Part shown: positions 18,686 to 19,055 of the stretch, piece after piece
Layout: each line of letters begins with the position of its first letter
Numbering within the stretch: the first letter of the stretch is position 1
Translations under genes and position numbers: made by a program
Source of the DNA: Clostridia bacterium
GTDB taxonomy: Bacteria > Bacillota > DTU025
Direction: 5' to 3'
Length of the DNA stretch: 32,247 nt
Assembly: GCA_034926675.1 (NCBI GenBank)
Contig: JAYFQW010000079.1
Span: 1-32,247 of the forward strand
Notes under the pieces: model-generated
Told to the model about the DNA's origin: nothing
The model's database searches: none
Seen by the model: the letters and a program-made list of their open reading frames with translations, nothing else

Positions 18686-18882
18686 CATGACGTTGTTGAA
18701 AACTCATGCGGGAAACGCGATGAAGAGGAGCAGTAGGTTCCGGAGCGGCCGAAGAGAGCCGGGAACGGTGGGATCCGGCGGTTGCATCGAGCCGAACTCG
18801 CCTTGGAGCGGCGCGGGCGAAATCGTTGTAGTCCGCGACGGGCGGCGCCGTTAGCCGCGAAGAGCCACCGTGGTGTTAACGT

Positions 18883-18958
18883 GGGGCTGTAGCTCAGCTG
18901 GGAGAGCGCTTGAATGGCATTCAAGAGGTCGAGGGTTCGATCCCCTTCAGCTCCACCA
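18883..18958 (+). tRNA. tRNA-Ala (GGC anticodon), inside the leuS T-box leader
   Basis: The 76-base gene includes an encoded CCA. The acceptor stem is GGGGCTG/CAGCTCC and contains the G3-U70 wobble, the identity element for alanine. The D arm is GCTC AGCTGGGA GAGC. The anticodon arm is CTTGA-ATGGCAT-TCAAG with anticodon GGC reading GCC/GCU. The T arm is GAGGG TTCGATC CCCTT. No internal promoter is apparent between the leader and this gene, so it is most simply transcribed from the leuS promoter at 18657. Confidence 0.97.
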
Positions 18959-19023
18959 TTTCTTTGTCCCTGGCATCGGTCGGGCCACGGTCGATCATAG
19001 GGTGGTACCGCGAGAATGTCCTC

Positions 19024-19055
19024 GCCCCTAACAGCTGAGCTGTTGGGGGCTTTTT
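19024..19055 (+). terminator. Intrinsic terminator of the leuS T-box
   Basis: GCCCCTAACAG pairs with CTGTTGGGGGC (11 bp including one G-T) around a 5-base loop, followed by TTTTT. Its 5' strand shares CGCCCCT with the antiterminator, giving the mutually exclusive fold expected of a T-box switch. Confidence 0.93.

Follow-up and report, generated by a model that had tools for sequence, protein, structure and literature searches.

The leader of leuS in the window, by which we mean the whole 32,247-nt stretch of DNA analyzed here, is a leucine T-box riboswitch with a complete tRNA-Ala(GGC) gene inside it; judged by the features examined in the sequence, it is a variant T-box that serves at the same time as a tRNA gene. 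Because the tRNA-Ala gene is built into an arm of the T-box, one transcript would be both the source of one tRNA and the sensor of another. The likely reading is a composite leader in which promoter and terminator are shared, tRNA-Ala lies in stem III, and leuS is reached by antitermination.

Parts of the leuS leader in the window

The T-box fold of the leader is kept. The Rfam model RF00230 matches it over the full model (positions 1 to 219; E 4e-20), with 96 bits against a gathering score of 93 bits (cmscan). A tRNA match (RF00005, 64 bits) is nested in the insert of this T-box match, and both pass the Rfam cut-offs. ARAGORN found the same gene as the sole tRNA of the window, with cloverleaf, anticodon GGC, and encoded CCA all present. 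These searches bear out the first-pass annotation, which had described a tRNA-Ala(GGC) with encoded CCA inside the leuS T-box; the other parts that it had named, including a CTC specifier, T-box core, antiterminator, and terminator, were all found by cmscan or in the sequence (Table 1). They follow in the order promoter, stem I with the specifier, F-box region, tRNA, T-box core, terminator, and leuS start. The specifier agrees with the downstream leuS, and the cognate tRNA-Leu(GAG) is encoded in the window genome. The antiterminator bulge is complementary to NCCA, and the 3' strand of the antiterminator is overlapped by the terminator, the only one seen for tRNA-Ala. The neighboring genes (obgE, nadD, rsfS, leuS, comEA, and comEC) are ordinary. 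A pattern made of a tRNA 3' half and a T-box had one match in the window and none in 100 shuffles; among eleven T-box matches in the window genome, only that of the leuS leader has a tRNA inside.

Table 1. Features of the leuS leader and its flanking genes in the window
Feature	Position	Strand	Evidence or remark
rsfS, ribosome silencing factor, upstream neighbor	18195..18638	+	NCBIfam TIGR00090, 99.8 bits
Sigma-70-type promoter, TTGACT-17-TATAAT	18657..18685	+	11/12 matches; sole promoter seen for the unit
Leucine T-box leader, with the tRNA as insert	18711..19032	+	cmscan, RF00230
Specifier codon CTC (Leu), read by tRNA-Leu(GAG)	18797..18799	+	sequence
CCGTTA, F-box / stem IIA-B element (named in PMC7583486)	18848..18853	+	sequence and alignment with relatives
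Stem III 5' strand ACCGUGG, partner 18985-18991	18867..18873	+	fold; covariation in relatives
tRNA-Ala(GGC), encoded CCA, anticodon 18916-18918	18883..18958	+	ARAGORN, RF00005, copy number
Stem III 3' strand CCACGGU	18985..18991	+	fold; covariation in relatives
Antiterminator; T-box core GGGTGGTACCGCG 19000-19012, bulge TGGT 19003-19006	18999..19029	+	sequence, cmscan
Intrinsic terminator, hairpin 19024-19050 followed by TTTTT	19024..19055	+	12-pair stem, T tail
leuS, leucine--tRNA ligase	19118..21631	+	NCBIfam TIGR00396, 1076 bits

Recurrence of the unit and position of the tRNA in stem III

T-boxes that hold a tRNA recur in Bacillota, Chloroflexota, and other groups. The leuS upstream regions of relatives show the same nesting in several families, beside leuS T-boxes free of a tRNA. 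When 84,980 species were scanned for any tRNA 3' half ahead of a T-box core, at least 120 loci were listed in these groups, and among the matches listed, 112 of 120 have tRNA-Ala(GGC). Since other species and families show the parts in the same order, an assembly error joining two loci, a danger raised in the first-pass annotation, is excluded. Other embedded identities among the 120 loci (Arg in L072, Glu in L115, and Val in L127) look like chance matches. No tRNA was called at five of the loci listed, and in L055 and L140 the tRNA is truncated by the end of the fetched stretch. The embedded tRNA-Ala of L015 (G001:C65, 287-464) is missed by tRNA finders because a scaffold gap, seen as a run of N with the 5' and 3' parts on either side, lies within the gene.

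By a strict pattern, at least 29 of 149 evenly drawn genomes of the window's phylum carry the unit, not counting pattern matches that do not coincide with a tRNA-Ala(GGC), as do at least 10 of 81 evenly drawn genomes of the phylum of Tengunoibacter; both counts are lower bounds, because G019 and G038 carry the unit yet escape the pattern. Cultured carriers include Syntrophomonas wolfei subsp. methylbutyratica, S. palmitatica, Thermosyntropha lipolytica, Desulfotruncus alcoholivorax, Orenia metallireducens, Dictyobacter, Tengunoibacter, and Ktedonobacter robiniae. Other carrier records are metagenome-assembled genomes titled Armatimonadota, Atribacterota, Coprothermobacterota, and Actinomycetota, a title not being proof of the taxon; the titles of a Luteimonas, a Desulfovibrio, and an Aneurinibacillus record look doubtful.

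Such patterns gathered 131 distinct units, which are mutually related and among which counts are not prevalences. ACCA is encoded in 130 of these 131, and the specifier is CTC in 113 of the 120 units scored. The RF00230 gathering cut-off is also exceeded by L013, L016, L017, L030, L081, L089, and L117; L015 falls just under it (90.4 bits), and several units from Chloroflexota and elsewhere are not listed for RF00230 at that cut-off. L059 and L158 have a very short stem I, in which the specifier closely follows AGTA and the distal AG-bulge/GGTG region is absent; despite this, their leaders are of the terminator type.

As to the site of the tRNA, the first-pass annotation had placed it after the stem II/III region and ahead of the antiterminator, and covariation and alignment correct this: the tRNA is inside stem III. 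This stem is flanked in T-boxes by RRRxG and AA (PMC7583486), and in relatives the tRNA lies between its two strands, as in L037 (AAGTG-GGCAAGAAT-tRNA-ATTCTTGCC-AA). In alignments with tRNA-free leuS T-boxes, a gap falls at the tRNA, and the remaining parts of the leader are aligned and unchanged. Strands of the same unit fit each other better than permuted strands (mean duplex energy, -12.2 versus -9.4 kcal/mol; z, -11), and when anchors are fixed regardless of pairing, 70.5% of positions pair in 80 distinct relatives chosen by the RRRxG/AA motif, compared with 56.8 +/- 1.5% for shuffled partners; because the units are related, these statistics are indicative rather than exact probabilities. 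No such fit is seen at the flanks of 25 non-embedded tRNA-Ala(GGC) genes (-7.2 versus -7.0 kcal/mol). Pairing is upheld by G-C/A-T/G-T exchanges between units. In the window itself, AAGAG is present; as points against the composite leader, stem III comprises no more than 7 pairs and has a C-C mismatch at the base, and the AA that follows is not in its usual form or place. On the comparative evidence, tRNA-Ala(GGC) forms the apical domain of stem III of the T-box, with covarying flanking strands.

Promoters, copy number, and decay of the unit

A promoter matching at 10 or more of 12 positions precedes stem I in 93 of the 121 units with enough sequence (2 in shuffles), and promoter scores there exceed those of shuffled sequence (10.64 versus 7.93). 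A search of the window for a promoter or terminator that would isolate the tRNA found none between the stem I promoter and the T-box core: on the same strand there is no promoter-like site between the promoter at 18657-18685 and the tRNA, as the first-pass annotation had remarked, and no terminator between the tRNA and the T-box core. The layout thus agrees with its further proposal that a single transcript would be both tRNA precursor and T-box. It is highly improbable that the tRNA is instead a separate transcription unit whose DNA merely overlaps that of the leader. A promoter of at least 10/12 near the tRNA occurs in 7 of the 121 units, among them four from Ktedonobacteria and two without stem I/II, and the promoter-like site between stem II and the tRNA in the Ktedonobacteria units and a few others such as L158 speaks for separate transcription and against a shared promoter. 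However, the near-tRNA site of L144 and L160 is simply the leader promoter, because stem I/II is gone; the window has neither such a site nor a terminator between tRNA and T-box core; and near-tRNA zones as a whole score like shuffled sequence (7.37 versus 7.24).

The four Ktedonobacteria units (L044, L095, L096, and L110) share a possible internal promoter, TTGTCG-17-TATAAT, some 70 nt upstream of the tRNA in the F-box region. They also have a tRNA-Ala(CGC) about 350 nt upstream; this was rejected as a second embedded tRNA, being a separate gene that precedes the leader promoter. In some units another gene lies between leader and leuS, namely, an acyl-CoA ligase gene (L068, L081, and L117), an ilvE-like gene (L092, L100, and L119), or a GNAT gene (L069 and L090), so that the T-box would control a short operon ending in leuS. 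We discarded these genes as alternative targets, since leuS comes further down in the same direction. In L220 (G008:C5:57200-58762), from a relative of the same order, an apparent group II intron starts just past the terminator, and in L014 (G008:C45), on another contig, an intron end (Rfam Intron_gpII) is directly upstream of leuS; the intron of G008 therefore seems to sit between riboswitch and leuS.

Exactly one tRNA-Ala(GGC) match was returned by a pattern search in 40 of the 49 genomes that carry the unit, the window's included. Four genomes, all Ktedonobacteria, have two or more matches, and in those looked at the second tRNA-Ala(GGC) is outside any T-box. Five have no match; in the three of these that were read (L080, L086, and L119), the embedded tRNA reads TGGCG in place of the TGGCA that the pattern requires. 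In the window genome, it is the embedded gene that gives the one match, the only other match with an Ala anticodon being CGC. Because no second copy was found there, the embedded tRNA-Ala(GGC) would be needed, with the proviso that an assembly of 90 contigs and 97% completeness may have missed one.

Where the T-box has decayed, the tRNA stays in place in all four cases. In L031 and L202, the promoter leads straight into tRNA-Ala and a terminator precedes leuS, that of L202 keeping one T-box strand, CCTCGTCCCTA; L144 and L160 have lost stem I/II and retain the T-box core. In the LeuS tree, embedded units do not form one clade, and at least 16 changes are required. The identity of tRNA, site, and specifier argues for a single origin of the arrangement, and leuS may have been transferred together with its leader. 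A frozen accident, in which a tRNA-Ala gene once landed in a leuS T-box, was left as the sole copy, and was then held by its essential role, would differ from the composite leader only in denying that sharing brings any advantage; the T-box would work as before or slightly worse. That all cases have the same isoacceptor at the same site fits a single event followed by inheritance and losses, and decay of the T-box with the tRNA kept fits retention for the tRNA alone. Yet deep persistence, the covariation of stem III, and T-box parts that are intact in most units show that selection keeps switch and tRNA together, and the reverse case found in other relatives, a tRNA-free T-box being kept with the tRNA at another locus, indicates that separation is possible. 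On balance, we regard such an accident as a tenable but somewhat doubtful account. The view of the first-pass annotation that the tRNA might be just a tolerated insertion undersells an arrangement that is old and recurrent and in which neither the tRNA nor its site varies.

Proposed composite leader and related systems

In the composite leader as we reconstruct it, one promoter would drive a leucine T-box with the tRNA-Ala(GGC) gene in its stem III, so that every transcript would include the sole tRNA-Ala(GGC) of the cell, which RNase P and 3' processing would release. When tRNA-Leu(GAG) is charged, the RNA would end at the T-box terminator just after the tRNA, and this terminator would hence also serve the tRNA; with uncharged tRNA-Leu(GAG), the antiterminator would form and transcription would run on into leuS. 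After this decision, leader and mRNA would be parted by RNase P, and because stem III stays paired around the tRNA, the geometry of the switch would be preserved until cleavage. The arrangement would persist because the tRNA gene is needed and its promoter and terminator are common to tRNA and switch. The first-pass annotation had speculated that alanine tRNA supply and leucine charging might be linked. In its simple form this is unlikely: the tRNA has already been transcribed when the T-box decides, and because the decision point comes after the tRNA, leucine charging should not gate tRNA-Ala synthesis.

A stronger coupling of tRNA biogenesis and leuS would follow if the embedded tRNA were a working part of the switch, either by its folding or RNase P cleavage acting against antitermination or by pairing of its 3' end with the bulge in cis. 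We consider this unlikely, and it is just as improbable that RNase P cleavage or tRNA-Ala folding sets a time limit for tRNA-Leu-dependent antitermination. Cleavage would detach the specifier from the antiterminator, a consequence foreseen in the first pass and consistent with the layout, and half of the units, the window's included, have G(-2)U(-1), which lowers the efficiency of Escherichia coli RNase P via pairing with the 3' RCCA (PMC9433436). However, cleavage alone need not matter, because the thrS and thrZ leaders of Bacillus subtilis are routinely cleaved upstream of the leader terminator (PMC3997798). The units (65 of 131) do not clearly exceed free tRNA-Ala(GGC) genes (8 of 26) in the frequency of G(-2)U(-1) (p 0.09, uncorrected for relatedness), and slow cleavage by this route was set aside as not distinguishing the two. 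Nor is the proposed cis pairing of ACCA with the TGGT bulge specific: tRNA-free leuS T-boxes have the same bulge, and the bulge does not follow the embedded tRNA, being TGGC or TGGA in 7 of 131 units in which the tRNA keeps ACCA. That every host has the same tRNA agrees better with descent than with a tuned mechanism.

The unit shares stem I, specifier, F-box region, stem III, antiterminator, competing terminator, and a downstream leuS with the transcriptional Leu(CUC) leuS T-box (RF00230); it differs from the ordinary form in that a complete tRNA-Ala(GGC) gene replaces the stem III loop, by which the leader would also become a tRNA precursor. In E. coli, thrU-tyrU-glyT-thrT-tufB is a tRNA-mRNA cotranscript made from one promoter and parted by RNase P. 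A single promoter for tRNA and mRNA and separation by RNase P are likewise what we propose here, but no riboswitch is known to be interrupted by the tRNA in such operons. The thrS and thrZ leaders of B. subtilis resemble the unit in that a tRNA-synthetase leader is cleaved upstream of a terminator, although RNases J/Y make the cut and the leader has no tRNA gene (PMC3997798). The tRNA-Sec gene nested in the selB frame also overlaps a gene of the translation apparatus, with processing-based control possible; that tRNA, however, lies in a protein reading frame and is handled by the encoded protein (PMC8124441), whereas tRNA-Ala lies in a riboswitch and is not the tRNA sensed.

The feature is real and conserved and, as far as we searched, undescribed: the open-licence PMC literature yielded no earlier description of a tRNA gene inside a T-box, and a mention in a subscription journal is possible. 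Such an overlap is easy to miss because annotation pipelines list two unrelated features. Here, an RNase P substrate separates two distant RNA parts that a conserved riboswitch has to bridge, which makes the timing of riboswitch decision versus tRNA processing directly testable, and stem III can carry a large folded domain. Should the tRNA be an active element of the switch after all, one processing event would control both the biogenesis of the tRNA and the expression of the synthetase. For many bacteria, a regulated leader seems to be the only source of a needed tRNA.
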